Source of the DNA: Streptomyces sp. 1222.5
Lineage (GTDB): Bacteria > Actinomycetota > Actinomycetes > Streptomycetales > Streptomycetaceae
Assembly (NCBI RefSeq): GCF_900105245.1
Contig: NZ_FNSZ01000001.1
Coordinates: forward strand, 6,136,001-6,200,000
Direction of reading: 5' to 3'
Length of the DNA stretch: 64,000 nucleotides
A program made the position numbers and the translations under genes. The notes under the pieces are model-generated. The model saw only the letters and a program-made list of their open reading frames with translations, made no database searches and was not told the DNA's origin. Below are positions 31,121 through 41,480 of this stretch, one piece after another. How positions within the stretch are numbered: the first letter of the stretch is position 1; every line of letters begins with the position of its first letter.

Positions 31121-31473
31121 GGTGGTGAATTCTCGCTTCCGATGTGAAGTTGCTGTGGCCGAATGGGGGTGGGTCGACCGGGCCCGAGAGCCGACCCTAG
31201 GCCCAGGCCCGGGGACAGGTGGCAACCGGGGCCTTCACCCTGTCGGCGAACACCCGGGACGAGACTACGCGCGTGCGCGCGTTCGCTCATTCCTGCGGGT
31301 GTTCACCTGTGCGTGGCGTCATGGCCATTTCCGCCCCCTGGGAGTCGGTGACCTGAGCCACACTCGTCGGGTTCCGGCGGGCCGTCTGCCCGCCGATTCG
31401 CGAGATTTCCACTGATCCTACGCAAATCCGTCATGTATCGGGTGTGGGGATCTTCTGGGGGGAGGAACCAGAC
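31121..31473. other. Divergent intergenic region between pepA and the polysaccharide deacetylase gene
   Basis: This 353-bp stretch has no convincing gene. It contains a nested inverted repeat: ACAGGTG (31215-31221) and GAACACCCG (31248-31256) pair with CGGGTGTTC (31296-31304) and the overlapping CACCTGT (31304-31310). The region must hold promoters for both genes; I could not place a -10/-35 pair with confidence. Confidence 0.45.
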
Positions 31474-33510
31474 ATGGCTCATAGGGCGCACCGCTGGAGA
31501 GCGGCCGGCGTCACCGCGACGGCCGCGGGGCTCATCACGCTGGGACTGGCCGCGCCGGGCGCGTCGGCCGCGACCGACCCGCGCATCGACCTGAGGGTCC
31601 TGGTCGTCGACGACGGCGCGGGACCGGTCGGCGCGATCACGGCCCAGCTGAAGAGCGAGGGCATCCCGTACACCACCGTCGATCTGGGCGACTCCGGCCG
31701 TCCGACGATCAGCGCCACCTTCCTGAGCGACAGCGTCGGCGGCCGGCCCCGTGCCAAGTTCCAGGGCGTGGTCCTGCCGAACGAGGCCCCGTTCGGGGCG
31801 GGTTCGGCCGAGCAGACGGCTCTGGAGGCGTACGAGAAGACGTACGGCATCCCGCAGCTCGACGCCTACACCTGGGCCCACCCGGAGGTGGGCCTCGACT
31901 ACACCGACAGCAACGGGTACGCCGGATCCCTCGACGGGCGCACGGCCACGGTCAGCACGGCCGGCCGGACGGGCCCGTTCGGGTATCTGCGGGGGGCGTT
32001 CTCGTTCGAGGACAACTCGTCGTCGGTGGACGAGAGTTACGGCTTCGTCGCGCAGCCGCGCACCGGCTTCACCAGTTACGTCGACACGGCCGTGCCCGGG
32101 GGGACCGGCAGCGGCAGCCTGCTCGGCGAGTACGCGCACGACGGCCGCCGCGAGCTGGTGGTGACGTTCGCCTACAACCAGTACCAGCAGCAGTTCCGGC
32201 TGCTGGCCCGCGGCATGGTCGAGTGGCTGACCCAGGGCGTGCACCTGGGCCAGGCCCGCAACTACTTCGCCGTGCACGTGGACGACGTCTTCGCGCCGGA
32301 CGCCCGCTGGGACGCCGAGCGCAACTGCACGCCCGGCGACATCGACTGCGCGGGCGGCGGCGAGGACACCGGGACGCCGATCCGCATGACGGCGGCCGAC
32401 GCCCAGTACGCGGCCTCCTGGCAGCAGAGCCACGGCTTCACCCTGGACATGGTGTTCAACGCGGGCGCCGGCGAGGAGTGGAGGAGCGAGAACGGCGGCA
32501 CGGACGCGCTGACCGACCAGCTGCTGAAGGACAAGGCCAAGTACCGCTGGGTGAACCACACCTACACCCACATGTTCCTCGGCTGCGTCCAGGACACCTC
32601 GACCGTGCCGTGGAGCTGCGCGAAGAACGCCGACGGCTCGACGAAGTGGGTGAGCCGCTCGGACATCTCCGGGGAGGTCGCGGACAACTACACCTGGGCG
32701 CTCCAGCACGGACTGTCCGTCGACCGCGGCGAGCTGGTCACCGGGGAGCACTCCGGTCTGAAGACGCTGCCCCAGCAGCCGCAGGACAACCCCAACCTGG
32801 GTCCCGCGCTCGCCTCCAACGGGGTGAAGTGGACGGCCTCGGACAACTCCCGCGAGTCCGAGCAGCGGACCGTCGGCACCGGCACGCTCACCGTGCCGCG
32901 CTACCCGATGAACGTGTACTACAACGTGGGCACCAAGGCCGAGATGGCCGACGAGTACAACTGGATCTACACGTCCAGGGCGGACGGCGGCAGCGGGATC
33001 TGCGAGGACAACCCGGCCTCGACCTGCCTGTCCCAGCCGCTGGACACGGCCACCGGATTCACCGACGGCATCGTGCCCGCCGAGGCCCACACCGACCTCG
33101 GGCACGTGCTGAGCAACGATCCGCGCCCGCACTACGCCCACCAGTCCAACCTGGCCGAGGACCGCCTCCTCTACCCGGTCCTGGACCGCGTACTGGCCGA
33201 CTACCAGGGGCTGTTCGCCGAGAACACCCCGATCGTCAACCTGCGGCAGAGCGCCATCGGCACCGAGATGCAGAACCGGGCCACGTGGCAGGCCGCGCTC
33301 GACGCCGGCAAGGTCACCGCCTACCGGATCGGGAACACCGTGACCGTCACGGCACCCTCCGGCACCCAGGTCCCGGTGACCGCGCCGGAGGGGACGAAGC
33401 AGCAGCAGGTGCTGGGCACCACCACGTTCGGCACCGCCTACGCCGGGCAGCGCTCGGCCTGGACGGCCCCGGGCCTGCTCCAGTCCGCGCTCACGCTGAA
33501 GCTGGCGTAA
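31474..33510 (+). CDS. Secreted polysaccharide deacetylase-like protein (PelA deacetylase-like)
   Basis: A 678-residue exported protein. The signal peptide covers about residues 1-33 (to GASAA). After a globular N-terminal domain of about 240 residues there is a deacetylase-like (NodB/CE18-type) region: YFAVHVDDVFAPDARW with the aspartate pair, and NHTYTHMFLGC with an H-x3-H metal site. Such enzymes remove acetyl groups from GalNAc or GlcNAc polymers. The ATG at 31474 is chosen over one 30 nt upstream because GGGGGGAGGAA lies directly before it and the signal peptide starts there. It precedes a PelF-like glycosyltransferase and probably modifies the polymer outside the cell. Confidence 0.78.
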   Translation: MAHRAHRWRAAGVTATAAGLITLGLAAPGASAATDPRIDLRVLVVDDGAGPVGAITAQLKSEGIPYTTVDLGDSGRPTISATFLSDSVGGRPRAKFQGVVLPNEAPFGAGSAEQTALEAYEKTYGIPQLDAYTWAHPEVGLDYTDSNGYAGSLDGRTATVSTAGRTGPFGYLRGAFSFEDNSSSVDESYGFVAQPRTGFTSYVDTAVPGGTGSGSLLGEYAHDGRRELVVTFAYNQYQQQFRLLARGMVEWLTQGVHLGQARNYFAVHVDDVFAPDARWDAERNCTPGDIDCAGGGEDTGTPIRMTAADAQYAASWQQSHGFTLDMVFNAGAGEEWRSENGGTDALTDQLLKDKAKYRWVNHTYTHMFLGCVQDTSTVPWSCAKNADGSTKWVSRSDISGEVADNYTWALQHGLSVDRGELVTGEHSGLKTLPQQPQDNPNLGPALASNGVKWTASDNSRESEQRTVGTGTLTVPRYPMNVYYNVGTKAEMADEYNWIYTSRADGGSGICEDNPASTCLSQPLDTATGFTDGIVPAEAHTDLGHVLSNDPRPHYAHQSNLAEDRLLYPVLDRVLADYQGLFAENTPIVNLRQSAIGTEMQNRATWQAALDAGKVTAYRIGNTVTVTAPSGTQVPVTAPEGTKQQQVLGTTTFGTAYAGQRSAWTAPGLLQSALTLKLA

Positions 33511-33532
33511 CGGCGCAACGCCCCGCAGGGGC

Positions 33533-33596
33533 GCGGGGAACCGCGCGATCAACCGCCTCGGACCCGTAGCCGGAGTCGGGGCCCGCGGTTCCCCGC
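33533..33596. terminator. Inverted repeat / Streptomyces-type intergenic hairpin after the deacetylase gene
   Basis: Perfect 13-bp arms GCGGGGAACCGCG (33533-33545) and its complement (33584-33596) enclose a 38-nt loop. The preceding GCCCCGCAGGGGCGCGGGGAA is, from memory, a widespread Streptomyces intergenic sequence. It may terminate or attenuate transcription between the deacetylase and glycosyltransferase genes. Confidence 0.6.
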
Positions 33597-33631
33597 ACGT
33601 CATCCGCGACACAGGGGGGAGTTGCGCAGCG

Positions 33632-35152
33632 ATGCGCACCGGCCGTCACGTCACCATGCTCACCGAAGGCACCTACCCGCACGTCCACGGCGGGGTCAGC
33701 ACCTGGTGCGACCAGCTCGTCAAGGGCATGCCCGAGGTCTCCTTCCATCTCGTCTCGCTCACCGGCAGCGGCCGCGAACCCGTCACCTGGGAGCTGCCGC
33801 CGAACGTCCGCCGGCACACCACCGTGCCCACCTGGGGCCCGCGCCCCGGCCGCGCCCGTGCCCCGCACGGCAGGGACCGGCGCCGCTTCACCGACGCCTA
33901 CGAGCGTCTCCTGCTGTCCTTCCTCGACCCCGAGGCGCGCTGCGACTTCGGCGAGGCGCTGTACGAACTGGCCGCCGTCGCCCGCGAGGGACGGCTGTCC
34001 GCGGCCCTGCGCACCGAGTCCGCGCTGCGCTCGCTCCAGTGGATCTGGACGATGCCGCACCTGCCGACGGCCGCGGCCGGGCCCACCGTGCACGACGCCC
34101 TGACCGCCACCGACCTGCTGGAGCACGCCCTGCGCCCGCTGGGGGTGCGCATCCCCGTGGACTCGGTGGCCCATGCCGTCAGCAGCGGCCTGGCGACCCT
34201 GCCCGCGCTCGCCGCGCACCGCCTCGACGGGGTGCCGTTCCTGCTCACCGAACACGGCATCTACCTGCGCGAGCGCTACCTGGGACAGCGGGGCGGCGGT
34301 CACCGCTGGCCCGTGAAGGCGTTCCTGCTGGGCTTCTACCGCGAACTCAACTCGCTCGGCTACCGCGCGGCCGACCTGATCACGCCGTGCAACCAGTACA
34401 ACCGCCGCTGGGAGGAGCGCGGCGGCGCCGACGCCGGCCGCATCCGCACGGTCTACAACGGCGTCGACCCGCACGCCTTCCCGCACGCCGGTCCCGAACC
34501 CGCCGTACCGACCCTCACCTGGTGCGGACGCGTCGACCCCATCAAGGACCTGGAGACCCTGCTGCGCGCCTACGCCGCCGTCCGCGCCGAACTCCCCGAG
34601 ACCCGGCTCAGGCTCTTCGGGCCGGTCCCGCCCGGCGGCGAGGAGTACCGCACCCTCCTGGAGAAGCTCGCCGCGGAACTCGGTGTCGCCGACGGCCTCA
34701 CGTTCGAGGGCCTTGTCACCGAGGTCTGGCGTGCCTACGCGGCCGGTCACGTGGTGATGCTGTCCTCCATATCCGAGGGCTTCCCGTTCTCCCTCATCGA
34801 GGCCATGTCCTGCGGCCGTACGACGGTCTCCACGGACGTCGGCGGGGTCCGCGAGGCCGTCGGCGACACCGGGCTGGTCGTGCCGCCCCGCGAACCGGAG
34901 AAGATGGCCGCCGCCGCGCTCTCCCTCCTCCGGGACGACGAACGGCGCCGGGAACTCGGCGAGTCGGCACGACAGCGGGTCATCGACCGGTTCACCCTGC
35001 GCCGCTCGGTCGACAATTTCCGCACCATCTACCAGGAACTCGCGGGCCTGCCCGAGCGGTACGAGCCCGCGGTCGAGACGGTGGCCGACTGGACCGCGGA
35101 GCTGCACGACCCGTGGTACGCGGCCGTCGCGGCGGACGGGAGCGACCGGTGA
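33632..35152 (+). CDS. PelF-like GT4 glycosyltransferase
   Basis: A 506-residue cytoplasmic glycosyltransferase. The N-terminal ~200 residues match the DUF3492 domain typical of PelF (MLTEGTYPHVHGGVSTWCDQL, later LLTEHGIYLRERYLG). The C-terminal half is a GT4 domain with GRVDPIKDLETLL, SISEGFPFSLIEAMSCG and a nucleotide-sugar-binding glutamate. PelF polymerises a UDP-N-acetylhexosamine-based polysaccharide, so a similar amino-sugar polymer is inferred. A GGGGGAG lies about 11 nt upstream. Its stop overlaps the next gene's GTG by 4 nt, so the two are translationally coupled. Confidence 0.85.
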   Translation: MRTGRHVTMLTEGTYPHVHGGVSTWCDQLVKGMPEVSFHLVSLTGSGREPVTWELPPNVRRHTTVPTWGPRPGRARAPHGRDRRRFTDAYERLLLSFLDPEARCDFGEALYELAAVAREGRLSAALRTESALRSLQWIWTMPHLPTAAAGPTVHDALTATDLLEHALRPLGVRIPVDSVAHAVSSGLATLPALAAHRLDGVPFLLTEHGIYLRERYLGQRGGGHRWPVKAFLLGFYRELNSLGYRAADLITPCNQYNRRWEERGGADAGRIRTVYNGVDPHAFPHAGPEPAVPTLTWCGRVDPIKDLETLLRAYAAVRAELPETRLRLFGPVPPGGEEYRTLLEKLAAELGVADGLTFEGLVTEVWRAYAAGHVVMLSSISEGFPFSLIEAMSCGRTTVSTDVGGVREAVGDTGLVVPPREPEKMAAAALSLLRDDERRRELGESARQRVIDRFTLRRSVDNFRTIYQELAGLPERYEPAVETVADWTAELHDPWYAAVAADGSDR

Positions 35153-36597
35153 CCGACGAGAACCGGGTGCTGTCCGGCATCCCCCGCCAGCGCAACCGGC
35201 CCGGCTGGGCCCGGCCCGACCCGATCGACGAACTCGCCCGCGAACTGGACGAGTTCGTGGCCGCCGCCGTGCACCCCGACGAGATAGCCGCGCTGCTGGA
35301 GTCCGACGGCCTCTCCGACGACCGGATACGCGAGCGCTACGGCGTCGAGGACTCCTTCGCGCTCGCCGAGCGGCTCTGGGACCGCACCCCGCGCCGCCAT
35401 CCCGAACCGGACGGCCCGCCCGCGGACCCGTGGCGGATCGGCCCGCTCGGCTGTCTGCTGCGCGGAGTCCTCTTCGCCCTGCCGGGCTTCGCCTACGTGC
35501 TCGGCGCCCCGCTCCTGGCCGGCCCGCACGACACAGCCGGTCTCCCGGCCGGCACCCGCACCCTGCTGGCGGGCGCCCTGTGCGGCTGGGCCTGGAACCA
35601 GGGGCTCGCCCACCGCGCCTACTCCTGGCTGGGCCTGGGCGACCGCCCGGCGGCCCGGCGCTGCCTGCTGACCGGCACCCCGGCGGGGATTCTGCTCGGC
35701 ACCCTGGTCGCGCTCGCCGTCGCGGGGCCCGGGCATCCGGCCCAGGTCGCGTTCGCCGCCGGGCAGTCCTGCTACCTGGGCGCGTCCGGGGCCCTGCTGG
35801 TGACGGGCCGCGAACGGATCCTCCTGGCCGGGCTCAGCCCGCTGGCGGTGGGCGGCCTCGTGTCCCTGGTCCACCCGCTGCCCGGACCCGCCGCCCTCGC
35901 CTCCCTGCTGATCTCGCTGACGGCCGTGGCCGTCCTCGGTCTGCTGGAGGTCGCTCCGGGGATCAGGGACGTCAAGGGGCGCGGGAAAGCGGCCGGAAAC
36001 CCCGGGCGGGCGCCCGGCCCCGCCCTGCTCGCCTCCCTGCCCTACGCCGTGTTCGGGCTCGGCACCGGCGTCCTGGTGCTGTACGCGGCCCTCGGCGACA
36101 TCCTGGCCGGAGGCGCCGGGCACGGCGCGCCGTCGGCCGTGGCGCTCACGCTCAGCATGGGCCCGGCCGAATGGCTGCTGTACCGCTTCCGCAGCGGGGC
36201 GCTGGCCGCCCTGCGCGGCAGCGGCACCCCGCGGGCCTTCCGCCGGGCGACCGTCCTCACCCTGGCCGGCTGCCTCACCGGATACCTCGCGGCCCTGCTC
36301 GCCCTCGCCCTGGCCACCACCGCGCTCTGGCCCGGCGCCCCGGCCCCGGCCGGTCCTCGCCTCGCCGGACTGCTCATGCTCGGCGTGGTGCTGTGGACGG
36401 GCCTGCTGCTGCAGTCCTTCGGGGCCGTCCTCGGTGCCACGGCCGTGTGCTGCGCCGCCGCGCTCGCCCAGACCCTCGCCCTGGCCGGACACGCGGGTCA
36501 CCCGCACGTGGTCGCCCTCGCCGTGTACACGGCGGCGGCCGCGGCCCAGTCGGCGCTGGTCTGCCACCGGCTGGGAAGGGCGACCGCCCACCGATGA
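35149..36597 (+). CDS. Polytopic membrane protein in the PelG position
   Basis: A 482-residue protein. The N-terminal ~95 residues are cytosolic and charged (ELARELDEFVAAAVHPDEIA, then a YGVEDSFALAERLW motif); about twelve hydrophobic segments follow, spread over 100-480. PelG, the partner of PelF, is also a twelve-helix flippase-like protein, so a role in moving or guiding the polymer through the membrane is likely. The sequence itself gives only topology and context. The GTG start overlaps the glycosyltransferase stop (GTGA) and the stop overlaps the next ATG, so the three genes form a tight operon. Confidence 0.75.
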   Translation: MTDENRVLSGIPRQRNRPGWARPDPIDELARELDEFVAAAVHPDEIAALLESDGLSDDRIRERYGVEDSFALAERLWDRTPRRHPEPDGPPADPWRIGPLGCLLRGVLFALPGFAYVLGAPLLAGPHDTAGLPAGTRTLLAGALCGWAWNQGLAHRAYSWLGLGDRPAARRCLLTGTPAGILLGTLVALAVAGPGHPAQVAFAAGQSCYLGASGALLVTGRERILLAGLSPLAVGGLVSLVHPLPGPAALASLLISLTAVAVLGLLEVAPGIRDVKGRGKAAGNPGRAPGPALLASLPYAVFGLGTGVLVLYAALGDILAGGAGHGAPSAVALTLSMGPAEWLLYRFRSGALAALRGSGTPRAFRRATVLTLAGCLTGYLAALLALALATTALWPGAPAPAGPRLAGLLMLGVVLWTGLLLQSFGAVLGATAVCCAAALAQTLALAGHAGHPHVVALAVYTAAAAAQSALVCHRLGRATAHR

Positions 36598-37244
36598 GCA
36601 CTCTGCTGGTCCCCTACTACGAGCACCCCGCGGTCCGCCCCGCCGACTGGGCGGCCGTCCTCGCCGCCGCGCCCCGCCTGTACGGGGTGGTCCTCAACCC
36701 GGCGAGCGGGCCGGGCGACCGCCCGGACGCGGCCTTCGCCGAGACGGCCGCCGGGCTGCGGACGGCGGGTGTCACCGTGCTGGGCTACGTCGACACCGGC
36801 TACGCCCGCAGGCCCCATGAGGACGTCGTGCGCGACCTGGCCCGGCACCGTGCCTGGTACGGCACCGACGGCGCCTTCCTGGACCAGGTGAGCTGCGACA
36901 TCGGCGAGTTCGGGCACTACGAACGGCTGGCCACGGCCGCCCGGGCCCTCGGCTGCCCGACCCTCGCGCTGAACCACGGCACCCGGCCGCACCCCGCGTA
37001 CGCGGCGCTCGCCGAGCTCCTGGTCACCTTCGAGGGCCCCTGGTCGGCGTACCGGCGCACCCCCGCCCAGGCCCCGGCCCCCGCGCCGGGCGCGCTCGAA
37101 TGCCATCTGGTGTACGGCGTGCCGGCCGGCGCCGACGTGGCCGCCGCGGCACGCGAACGGGGCGCCCGCGTGCACTGCGCGGTACCGGGCGACGGGGCCC
37201 ACCCCTGGGGCACGCTGCCCCACGGGCTGGCCCCGGCCCACTGA
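36594..37244 (+). CDS. Spherulin-4 family glycoside hydrolase-like protein
   Basis: A 216-residue TIM-barrel-like protein of the spherulin-4 family (PF12138, related to GH135/GH114 galactosaminidases). Family motifs are visible: LLVPYYEHPAVRPADW, GVVLNPASGPGDRPD, VLGYVDTGYARRP and DGAFLDQVS with the likely acidic catalytic residues. No signal peptide is seen, which is odd for an enzyme expected to act on an exported polymer. In Pel and galactosaminogalactan systems a hydrolase of this class trims or clears the polymer. The ATG overlaps the preceding stop (ATGA). Confidence 0.82.
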   Translation: MSTLLVPYYEHPAVRPADWAAVLAAAPRLYGVVLNPASGPGDRPDAAFAETAAGLRTAGVTVLGYVDTGYARRPHEDVVRDLARHRAWYGTDGAFLDQVSCDIGEFGHYERLATAARALGCPTLALNHGTRPHPAYAALAELLVTFEGPWSAYRRTPAQAPAPAPGALECHLVYGVPAGADVAAAARERGARVHCAVPGDGAHPWGTLPHGLAPAH

Positions 37245-39683: not shown

Positions 39684-41480
39684 CTATCGGTGCGTGTCCA
39701 GGTGCCTGCGGTGCAGCCACTTCGGCAGCCCCGGCGCCTCCAGGAAGCCCTCCGCGCGGGCCGCGCCGAGGCCGATGCGCGGCAGGTCCGCGCTCTTCTC
39801 GAAGAGCAGGAACCGCGGCTCCCAGATGGGCCGGTACTTGGCGTTCGCGCGGTACAGCGACTCGATCTGCCACCAGCGGGAGAAGAAGCTGAGCAGCGAC
39901 CGCCACAGCCTCAGCACCGGCCCGGCGCCGAGGCGTGCGCCACGTTCGAAGACCGACCGGAACACCGCGAAGTTCAGCGACACTTGAGTGATCCCCGTCT
40001 CGCCGGAGCGCTGCAGCAGCTCGATGACCATGAACTCCATCAGCCCGTTGTCGGAGTCCCGGTCGCGCCGCATGAGGTCCAGGGACAGCCCCTTCGGGCC
40101 CCACGGCACGAAGGAGAGCAGGGCCCGCAGCCGGCCCTCGGCGTCCGTGCACTCCAGCATCACGCAGCGGCCGTCCTCGGGGTCGCCGAGCCGGCCGAGG
40201 GCCATGCTGAACCCGCGCTCGGTCGCCCCGTCGCGCCAGTCGTCCGCGCGTTCAAGCAGGTACGCCATCTCGTCCGCCGGGATGTCCTCGTGCCGCCGGA
40301 TGCGCACCCGGTACCCGGCCCGCCGCACCCGGTTGCAGGCTTGCCGGACGGTCCGCATGGCCCGTCCCTCCAGCGTGAACTCGGCGATCTCCACCAGCGC
40401 CTCGTCACCGAGCTCCAGCGCGTCCAGGCCGTACCGGGCGTAGACGGTCCCGGCCTCCTCGCTCGCCCCCATCACGGCCGGGATCCACCCGTGCGCCCGC
40501 GCCTGGGCGAGCCACGGCAGGATCGCCCCGGGCCAGGCCTCCGGGTCCCCGAGCGGATCCCCGGACGCGAGACTCACCCCGCCGACGACCCGGTAGGCGA
40601 CGGCCGCCTTCCCGGTCGGCGACCACACCACGCTCTTCTCCCGGCGCAGCGCGAAGTAGCCGAGCGAGTCCCGCTCCCCGTGCCGTTCGAGCAGGGCCCG
40701 CAGCCGCTTCTCGTCGTCCTCGGTGAGCGGGTCGACGGCCCGCCGGGACCGGAACGCGGCGTAGAACACGGCGAGGACCAGGGCCGTGCTGAGCACGTTG
40801 ACCGCCACGTTCGCCCAGTTGGGCGGGTCGATGCCGGGGAAGCTGGACTCCTCGGCGGCCACCGACACCAGCCGCAGGGTGCCGTAGTGCCAGCGCTCCA
40901 GGAACGTCGAACGGGCCGCGTCCGGCGCCCGGTTGGTGACCGTCACCAGCAGTCCGGCGAGCAGGGAGGCGGCCAGTCCGCCGCCCACGGCGACCGTGGC
41001 CGCGAGCCGCGGGTTGGACCGGTCCCCCTTGGCGTAGAACTCGCCGCGGCCGGCGAGCAGCGCGCCGACGAACGCGGCCGTCAGCGCCAGGGAGATCCAG
41101 TTCTGCGGGTACCGCCGGATCTCCGGGAACGCCATGGCGAACGCGAACAGGGCGAGGAAGGCGCCGCTGAGCACGAGGTTCAGGATCCACGCGGCCCGTT
41201 TGCGGCGCCGCATGGTGATCGCCAGGAACGCGGTGAACACGCCCGAGGCGAAGCCGGCGGTCAGCAGGTACGGGGTGAAGAAGTCGTCCTGGTTGTGCCG
41301 GCGCACGTCCTGGCCGAGGGAGACCCACACGGCGCTGAGGAAGTTGACGAAGGCGACGGTCCGCAGATACCAGACGGCGACGGCGGCGGCGCGCCGGGAA
41401 GTCCCGGTGGACCGCCGCCCCTCCTCGCTCGGACGCCCCGGTTCGGCTTCCGGCTGCACGGCAATTCGGGCATCTCCCAT
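39684..41480 (-). CDS. Phosphatidylglycerol lysyltransferase-like membrane protein (DUF2156)
   Basis: A 598-residue protein. The N-terminal ~225 residues carry five to six transmembrane helices; the C-terminal half is the MprF/LysX-type dual GNAT domain (KSVVWSPTGKAAVAYRVVGGV, GDPLGDPEAWPGAI and FFSRWWQIESLYRANAKY, all family hallmarks). Such enzymes transfer lysine or another amino acid from tRNA to phosphatidylglycerol, making the membrane less anionic. The ATG at 41480 has TATGAT 8 nt upstream and no Shine-Dalgarno, suggesting a leaderless mRNA. The 229 bp up to cobT hold that promoter and nothing else convincing. Confidence 0.88.
   Translation of the reverse strand: MGDARIAVQPEAEPGRPSEEGRRSTGTSRRAAAVAVWYLRTVAFVNFLSAVWVSLGQDVRRHNQDDFFTPYLLTAGFASGVFTAFLAITMRRRKRAAWILNLVLSGAFLALFAFAMAFPEIRRYPQNWISLALTAAFVGALLAGRGEFYAKGDRSNPRLAATVAVGGGLAASLLAGLLVTVTNRAPDAARSTFLERWHYGTLRLVSVAAEESSFPGIDPPNWANVAVNVLSTALVLAVFYAAFRSRRAVDPLTEDDEKRLRALLERHGERDSLGYFALRREKSVVWSPTGKAAVAYRVVGGVSLASGDPLGDPEAWPGAILPWLAQARAHGWIPAVMGASEEAGTVYARYGLDALELGDEALVEIAEFTLEGRAMRTVRQACNRVRRAGYRVRIRRHEDIPADEMAYLLERADDWRDGATERGFSMALGRLGDPEDGRCVMLECTDAEGRLRALLSFVPWGPKGLSLDLMRRDRDSDNGLMEFMVIELLQRSGETGITQVSLNFAVFRSVFERGARLGAGPVLRLWRSLLSFFSRWWQIESLYRANAKYRPIWEPRFLLFEKSADLPRIGLGAARAEGFLEAPGLPKWLHRRHLDTHR

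Follow-up and report, generated by a model that had tools for sequence, protein, structure and literature searches.

What do four adjacent genes of Streptomyces sp. 1222.5, encoding a deacetylase, a glycosyltransferase, a membrane protein and a spherulin-4 protein, make together? The genes lie on the + strand at positions 31474-37244 of a 64,000-nucleotide stretch (NZ_FNSZ01000001.1, positions 6,136,001 to 6,200,000 of an 8.85 Mb genome), which we call the window and to whose numbering positions refer unless stated otherwise. An initial annotation of this DNA had described the four genes as a minimal Pel-like exopolysaccharide locus. The four same-strand genes are indeed there, and amino-sugar polysaccharide synthesis in a spore-forming actinomycete, as that annotation proposed, is well supported by the family evidence. 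"Pel-like", however, is too narrow, for the operon resembles the polymer cluster of moulds such as Aspergillus more than bacterial Pel. We consider it probable that this is an Agd3-type exopolysaccharide operon, predicted to make a partly deacetylated N-acetylgalactosamine (GalNAc) polymer similar to galactosaminogalactan (GAG) or Pel.

Among published descriptions, the one closest to this operon is that of bacterial Agd3-type operons by Bamford et al. 2020 (PMC7229062), who report a glycosyltransferase and a membrane protein in them and, for some Actinobacteria, also a spherulin-4 protein. The window locus shares with them the CE18/CBM87 deacetylase, the cytoplasmic glycosyltransferase and the multi-spanning membrane protein, together with the spherulin-4 protein of those Actinobacteria, and differs in lacking GH114. 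Because such operons have already been reported, the kind is known, though uncharacterised, and the window operon is a variant of it. With the GAG cluster of Aspergillus fumigatus (uge3, gtb3, agd3, ega3, sph3) the locus has in common the type of deacetylase, the GH135 type of hydrolase and a glycosyltransferase gene. It differs from that cluster in having neither an epimerase nor a GH114 gene, and in encoding glycosyltransferase and membrane part by a gene each; Gtb3 is described as a putative transmembrane glycosyltransferase (PMC4817252), and our comparison with it is one of descriptions. Galactosamine polysaccharides are not foreign to the genus, as Streptomyces walls contain them and S. 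griseus has an endo-galactosaminidase (PMC7229062).

Relation of the deacetylase to Agd3

The first gene (31474..33510, + strand) encodes a protein of 678 amino acids in which a signal-peptide-like N-terminus, judged by eye on the sequence, is followed by a CBM87-like and then a CE18 domain. To which deacetylases is it related? A profile of 12 homologs (alignment A1) matched the Agd3 crystal structure 6nwz with an E value of 1e-30 in two stretches, the first spanning residues 26-264 of the chain, which form the CBM87-like domain ahead of the CE domain, and the second covering the CE domain. The Pfam family Agd3_CE was matched at E <= 0.01 by 11 of the 12 members of A1 and CBM87_Agd3 by 5 of the 12, the window deacetylase itself having no match to the latter. 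Profile A1 also reached NDST1, the human heparan sulfate N-deacetylase, with an E value of 0.004.

The DD and HxxxH motifs noticed in the initial annotation were located at D270-D271 and H362-x3-H366, and R476 and H556 complete a set that corresponds to the catalytic residues (DD, HxxxH, Arg, His) listed for Agd3 by Bamford et al. (PMC7229062). Conservation was judged in A1 and in a further alignment, A3. D270, D271, H362, H366 and H556 were invariant in both, and R476 was invariant in A3 and differed in one of the 12 rows of A1 (L038; L and G numbers are our labels for the loci and genomes compared).

A VIA-align search with a weak model of the deacetylase placed Agd3 (6nwz) in the best row (Z 19.2, 347 aligned, rmsd 8.7), above NDST1 (Z 16.9), polysaccharide deacetylases (about 10) and PelA (9cgy, Z 9.4); PelADA was not among the rows listed. 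We give this fold search less weight than the family profile because the model is weak, probably since its 28 rows are too alike. On the strength of profile and motifs, the window deacetylase is placed by its sequence with Agd3, the CE18/CBM87 enzyme of the Aspergillus GAG cluster, which deacetylates alpha-1,4-GalNAc oligomers (PMC7229062).

The glycosyltransferase and the membrane protein compared with Pel

Does the rest of the operon follow Pel? The second gene (33632..35152, + strand) encodes a glycosyltransferase of 506 amino acids with a DUF3492 N-terminal region, which scored 190.9 bits on PF11997 against a cut-off of 23.3, and a GT4 domain that Pfam also recognised. On the NCBIfam PelF model NF038011 the protein scored 169.1 bits, above the cut-off of 100, and the E-x7-E motif was found at E382/E390. 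Hydropathy revealed no hydrophobic segment in it. The PelF-like assignment made in the initial annotation therefore stands, and two possibilities against which that annotation had guarded, a glycosyltransferase without DUF3492 and a deacetylase matching no CE4 or CE18 fold, did not materialise, as the deacetylase matches a CE18 protein.

The third gene (35149..36597, + strand), which overlaps the second by 4 bp, encodes a protein of 482 amino acids in the position of PelG. The 12 helices counted earlier reappeared in an AF2 model (mean pLDDT 83.4) as long helices arranged six and six, behind a helical N-terminal domain. VIA-align with this model gave MATE as the top match (Z 19.7), followed by WzxE (15.4) and MurJ (13.2), and 49 of the 50 rows carried MATE/MOP, WzxE or MurJ titles, the remaining one being titled only "protein A" (5c6n). 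Foldseek also ranked a MATE protein best, with an E value of 1.5e-3 and no match at E <= 0.001. No Pfam family was matched. The PelG model PF16933 had no match at E <= 1 in the window's own genome, and 2 of the 246 genomes searched matched it, at 459 and 471 bits. When 34 homologs of the membrane protein were compared by hhalign with two PelG sequences, the probability was 0.1, a weak negative, as both sides are little diverse. PelG is described as a member of the same superfamily (MOP) with a 12-helix bundle (PMC13254593, 2026). As modelled, the membrane protein thus fits PelG, whose fold we take from this description, by its MOP fold and 12 helices, without detectable PelG sequence similarity. 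The HMM searches that the initial annotation had proposed were accordingly divided, the PelF model being passed and the PelG model remaining silent.

The N-terminal domain of the membrane protein is conserved, cytosolic and about 60 residues long. It occurs three times in the genome, always in a membrane protein adjoining a DUF3492 glycosyltransferase, suggesting a dedicated contact between the two partners.

No PelD-type domain was seen among the eight neighbouring genes scanned, two of which match no family, and the same eight genes contained no PelE-type domain and no TPR-type gene, no PelE model having been used. The PelD model PF16963 gave no match in any genome, control genomes included, and is thus uninformative. 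The absence of PelD and PelE, asserted earlier, agrees with what these neighbours show at the locus.

More complete relatives of Pel were found in two distant actinobacterial genomes, G140 (locus L127, 2999-12139) and G111 (locus L129, 2915-12024), where pelD-E-F-G-like genes run in one direction. The PelD-like proteins have GAF and GGDEF-type regions (the GGDEF region of L129 lies just below the cut-off), the PelE-like proteins are TPR/HEAT proteins, and the PelG proteins score 459-475 bits. In the place of PelA stands an Agd3-type deacetylase that passes both of the Agd3 cut-offs in Pfam, and a spherulin-4 gene whose product has a signal-peptide-like start lies next door on the opposite strand. 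An Agd3-type deacetylase therefore also accompanies a full set of Pel-type synthase genes, and this speaks for a GalNAc-type polymer as the product of the window operon.

Could the window operon then be a true Pel operon that has been shortened, retaining PelF, PelG and a PelA-type deacetylase and having lost PelD and PelE? The PelF score above its cut-off, the MOP-fold protein in the position of PelG and the deacetylase type shared with the two pelDEFG-like genomes would all agree with such an origin. The PelG results argue otherwise, as does the deacetylase, which is closer to Agd3 (Z 19.2) than to PelA (Z 9.4). The glycosyltransferase, too, scores 169 bits, whereas the PelF that adjoins PelG in L127 scores 490.7 bits on NF038011. 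We regard this explanation as unlikely and favour an Agd3-type operon. A similar balance emerges from the comparison with pelDEADAFG of Bacillus cereus, as described in PMC7112168 and PMC13254593. The two share a PelF-like glycosyltransferase, a MOP-type exporter and a secreted deacetylase with a domain before the CE domain; the window locus differs in that no PelD or PelE was seen and PelG was not matched by sequence, and in having CE18 where B. cereus has CE26. "Pel-like" is thus right as regards the PelF model and the fold in the PelG position, and fails for the Agd3-type deacetylase, the unmatched PelG sequence and the hydrolase, which is of the fungal Sph3 type (GH135).

The spherulin-4 protein and the proposed pathway

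The last gene (36594..37244, + strand) encodes a spherulin-4 protein of 216 amino acids, scoring 90.4 bits on PF12138 (Spherulin4) against a cut-off of 30.2, and phmmer matched it to the Sph3 structure 5c5g with an E value of 5e-8. Asp97 is kept in all 65 ungapped rows of the alignment and Glu147 in 65 of 66 rows; in the related GH114/GH191 enzymes Asp is the nucleophile and Glu the acid/base (PMC12054363). Asp97 is followed by Gln in 60 rows, by Arg in three and by Glu in two, and the two with Glu are the signal-peptide-like proteins of the pelDEFG-bearing relatives.

Where does this enzyme act? As the initial annotation had remarked, no signal peptide is visible: by eye, the protein begins at the first barrel strand and leaves no room for one. 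Among 62 homologs (65 minus one fragment and the two distant proteins with signal-peptide-like starts), 51 have at most five residues ahead of the first aligned strand, and the other 11 are extended by 6 to 35 residues, in no case leader-like by eye. The missing leader is, as far as these alignments tell, a family trait. The protein thus carries the Spherulin4 domain and the Asp/Glu pair of GH135, and by its sequence departs from the secreted enzymes of that family. Together with the 4-bp overlap between its gene and that of the membrane protein, the leaderless start makes trimming inside the cell the simplest reading.

We propose the following pathway. In the cytoplasm, the PelF-like glycosyltransferase would polymerise a UDP-amino sugar, which is most likely UDP-GalNAc. 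The membrane protein, in the role of PelG, would move the chain across the membrane, its extra cytosolic domain serving to dock the glycosyltransferase. Outside, the secreted CE18-type enzyme would strip acetyl groups, so that the polymer, of the GAG/Pel kind, becomes partly cationic and adhesive and may bind hyphae to one another and to surfaces. Most likely intracellular, the leaderless GH135 protein would cut still-acetylated chains that stall or grow too long. One polymer behind hyphal aggregation in Streptomyces is the poly-N-acetylglucosamine (poly-GlcNAc) of the MatAB system (PMC5972031); it resembles the polymer proposed here in being an amino-sugar polymer for hyphal aggregation and differs in its sugar, GlcNAc.

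The likeness to fungal enzymes also allows a quite different explanation, that the secreted deacetylase and the hydrolase act on mould biofilm, attacking or using fungal GAG rather than taking part in synthesis. Both enzymes match those of fungal GAG metabolism, Streptomyces meet fungi in soil, and some loci retain the deacetylase alone. Yet the glycosyltransferase and exporter genes lie between the deacetylase and hydrolase genes, with overlaps, and the hydrolase has no export signal, and we consider this explanation very improbable beside synthesis by an Agd3-type operon.

Conservation, related modules and a Crp-like site

How widely are the four genes kept together? A scan of GTDB genomes returned 538 relatives, and gene order was studied in the best 80 of the 538 loci, a sample leaning to close relatives in which gene starts were set by a simple gene caller. 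In these 80 loci the deacetylase is accompanied by the glycosyltransferase in 72, the membrane protein in 68 and the spherulin-4 protein in 60, with partial matches at contig ends counted and some of the misses being contig ends. The 4-bp overlaps recur in 42 of the 71 pairs of glycosyltransferase and membrane protein genes and in 43 of the 62 pairs of membrane protein and spherulin-4 genes.

Among 101 Streptomyces genomes, the deacetylase was present in 53 (a few copies broken) and DUF3492 in 96. The deacetylases occupy 64 places, obtained from 66 rows by merging the second pieces of broken deacetylases in G047 and G069 with the first. A DUF3492 glycosyltransferase lies just downstream in 58 of the places, and 52 of these also have a spherulin-4 gene, in the compact order in 30 and about 6 kb further on, in a long form, in 22. 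Six places have the glycosyltransferase with no spherulin-4 gene found, an upper bound, since the genome scan missed the genome's own type C gene (see below), which scores 79.5 bits as a protein. In the other six no glycosyltransferase was found, and at least one of them, in G014, stops at a contig edge. These counts omit DUF3492 rows scoring below the type C row of the window's genome, Spherulin4 rows scoring below that of the window, and Spherulin4 rows elsewhere; a weaker Spherulin4 row does lie near the broken deacetylase of G069. In a sample of 296 genomes of the phylum, 9 matched, 4 of them in the genus, including the window's own genome. We also observed in a distant actinobacterium (L130, G388:C5:84000-99608) a deacetylase relative with several stops or frame changes, reflecting decay or assembly error, near two matches to the glycosyltransferase of the window.

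The genome itself holds three modules, so that the "minimal" of the initial annotation is relative: two further modules contain extra sugar-nucleotide genes. Besides the window (type A), type B (L123) consists of glycosyltransferase, membrane protein, epimerase/dehydratase, nucleotidyltransferase, epimerase and spherulin-4 genes, all open frames, and of a deacetylase remnant (L123:8415-8923, near 7976415) that matches residues 1-105 and 676-709 of an intact relative, the middle being gone. Type C (L124:5557-10547, near 3265557-3270547) has glycosyltransferase, membrane protein, epimerase and spherulin-4 genes and no deacetylase; its glycosyltransferase scores 90.4 bits on the PelF model, below the cut-off of 100, and Ser replaces the conserved Glu of its spherulin-4 protein. 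The only match in the genome to GH114, the family of Ega3-type endo-galactosaminidases, is at G000:C1:1278430-1279068 (L159), about 4.9 Mb off and far from all three modules.

The operon is flanked by a divergent pepA gene (M17 aminopeptidase) on one side and a convergent cobS gene on the other. A consensus scan for sigma-70 promoters and terminators found none. A palindrome, GTGACCTGAGCCAC, lies at 31348..31361 (+ strand), 126 to 113 bases upstream of the deacetylase ATG, and fits GTG(N)6GNCAC, the strong Crp consensus of Streptomyces (PMC10033298). Such a palindrome occurs upstream of the deacetylase in 47 of the 80 loci, in 43 of them at -113 to -136. Some consensus match within 300 bp was found in 48, the only match of L110 being the one in the pepA start. 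When the upstream regions of 40 such loci were shuffled by mononucleotide, a match appeared in about 2% of shuffles, a contrast inflated by the kinship of the loci. Is the site a property of the operon or of pepA? Twenty genomes without the deacetylase were compared, and in 15 of them cobS was found in the 1.5 kb flanking pepA. Only one (L164) showed such a site on this side, one further genome being not assessable and one assessable in part. The genome of L164 (G026) keeps a spherulin-4 gene beside pepA (G026:C38:33172-33609) along with the Crp-like site, and this is probably a remnant of the operon. In L162 a consensus match lies on the other strand. Deacetylase genes without the other three have the site in L044, L046 and L101 and not in L047 and L052. 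Since some genomes carry consensus matches in the pepA start, the consensus alone is not rare here; nonetheless, this candidate site, defined by sequence, tends to accompany the operon and not pepA. Control would then be transcriptional, through Crp-like binding at this site, and not through c-di-GMP binding to PelD. A BldD box was also considered for the palindrome and dropped, as the spacing misfits the BldD consensus.

Several observations weigh against an Agd3-type operon of the kind proposed. Taken alone, the window deacetylase scores 20.2 bits on Agd3_CE, under the cut-off of 27.6, and a single-sequence phmmer search against solved structures returned neither Agd3 nor anything relevant. 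Its AlphaFold model is poor (pLDDT 52), and plain Foldseek with this weak model ranked NDST1 first, with Agd3 absent from the 50 rows. Next to the aligned Asp, the spherulin-4 protein carries Gln in place of the Glu of Sph3. The locus lacks GH114, a common member of published Agd3 operons, whose presence in or beside them is described as highly consistent, though not universal (PMC7229062). A gap of 121 bp separates the deacetylase gene from the glycosyltransferase gene, so that a single transcript for the whole operon is putative. Five loci with full flanks (L044, L046, L047, L052 and L101) contain the deacetylase and none of the other three genes. By the first residues of their products, the neighbours in L044, L047 and L101 are those of the pepA side and the downstream side of the window. 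A lone deacetylase may act in trans, because two such genomes (G016, G061) carry a type B place elsewhere. Concerning the Crp-like site, 32 of the 80 loci have no exact match within 300 bp, and in 9 of the 20 genomes without the deacetylase another consensus match lies 57 bp before the pepA start position used, which we read as pepA coding sequence.

The NDST1 matches raise the question of whether the operon makes another N-acetylated polymer, for instance a cell-wall glycopolymer or a heparosan-like chain, with the CE fold N-deacetylating a sugar other than GalNAc. NDST1 ranked second in VIA-align (Z 16.9) and headed the Foldseek list, and precursors may vary, since a related module of the same genome has epimerase/dehydratase and nucleotidyltransferase genes. 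However, Agd3 stands above NDST1 both in VIA-align and in the profile (1e-30 versus 0.004), and the GH135 family of the hydrolase has been characterised on GalNAc polymers (PMC12054363). We hold this alternative to be improbable, and a GalNAc polymer made by an Agd3-type operon remains our preferred explanation.

What would such an operon mean for the genus? We suggest tentatively, as an extension that is rather doubtful, that a cationic polygalactosamine resembling that of moulds is produced in many streptomycetes. The synthase would be independent of c-di-GMP, pairing a PelF-like enzyme with a MOP exporter that has a private docking domain; GH135 would edit acetylated chains inside the cell before export, and control would be of the cAMP/Crp type. 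If this is true, the bacterial source that has been proposed for the fungal GAG cluster would have living relatives in these modules. Hyphal aggregation matters in Streptomyces fermentation, and a second, galactosamine-type system in about half of the species sampled (53 of 101 genomes) would offer a new handle on pellets and surfaces. The operon would also provide a bacterial system, in a harmless filamentous host, for testing the roles of Agd3- and Sph3-type enzymes, hitherto studied in a fungal pathogen, and it suggests a cytosolic polymer hydrolase, a placement outside the models set out in the publications cited here.

A search of titles and abstract openings of the best-ranked open-access papers found no description of this exact Streptomyces operon. 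Beyond the operons as described by Bamford et al. 2020, we add the exporter's fold and private domain, a GH135 protein that keeps the acidic pair and lacks a leader, and the scale of occurrence within Streptomyces. We also add the paralogous modules with a decayed deacetylase, the combination of pelDEFG with Agd3, and the Crp-like site, none of which was found in the open literature searched. A few genes downstream of the operon, at 39684-41459 of the window, lies a phosphatidylglycerol lysyltransferase-like gene, which also adds positive surface charge and is probably unrelated.

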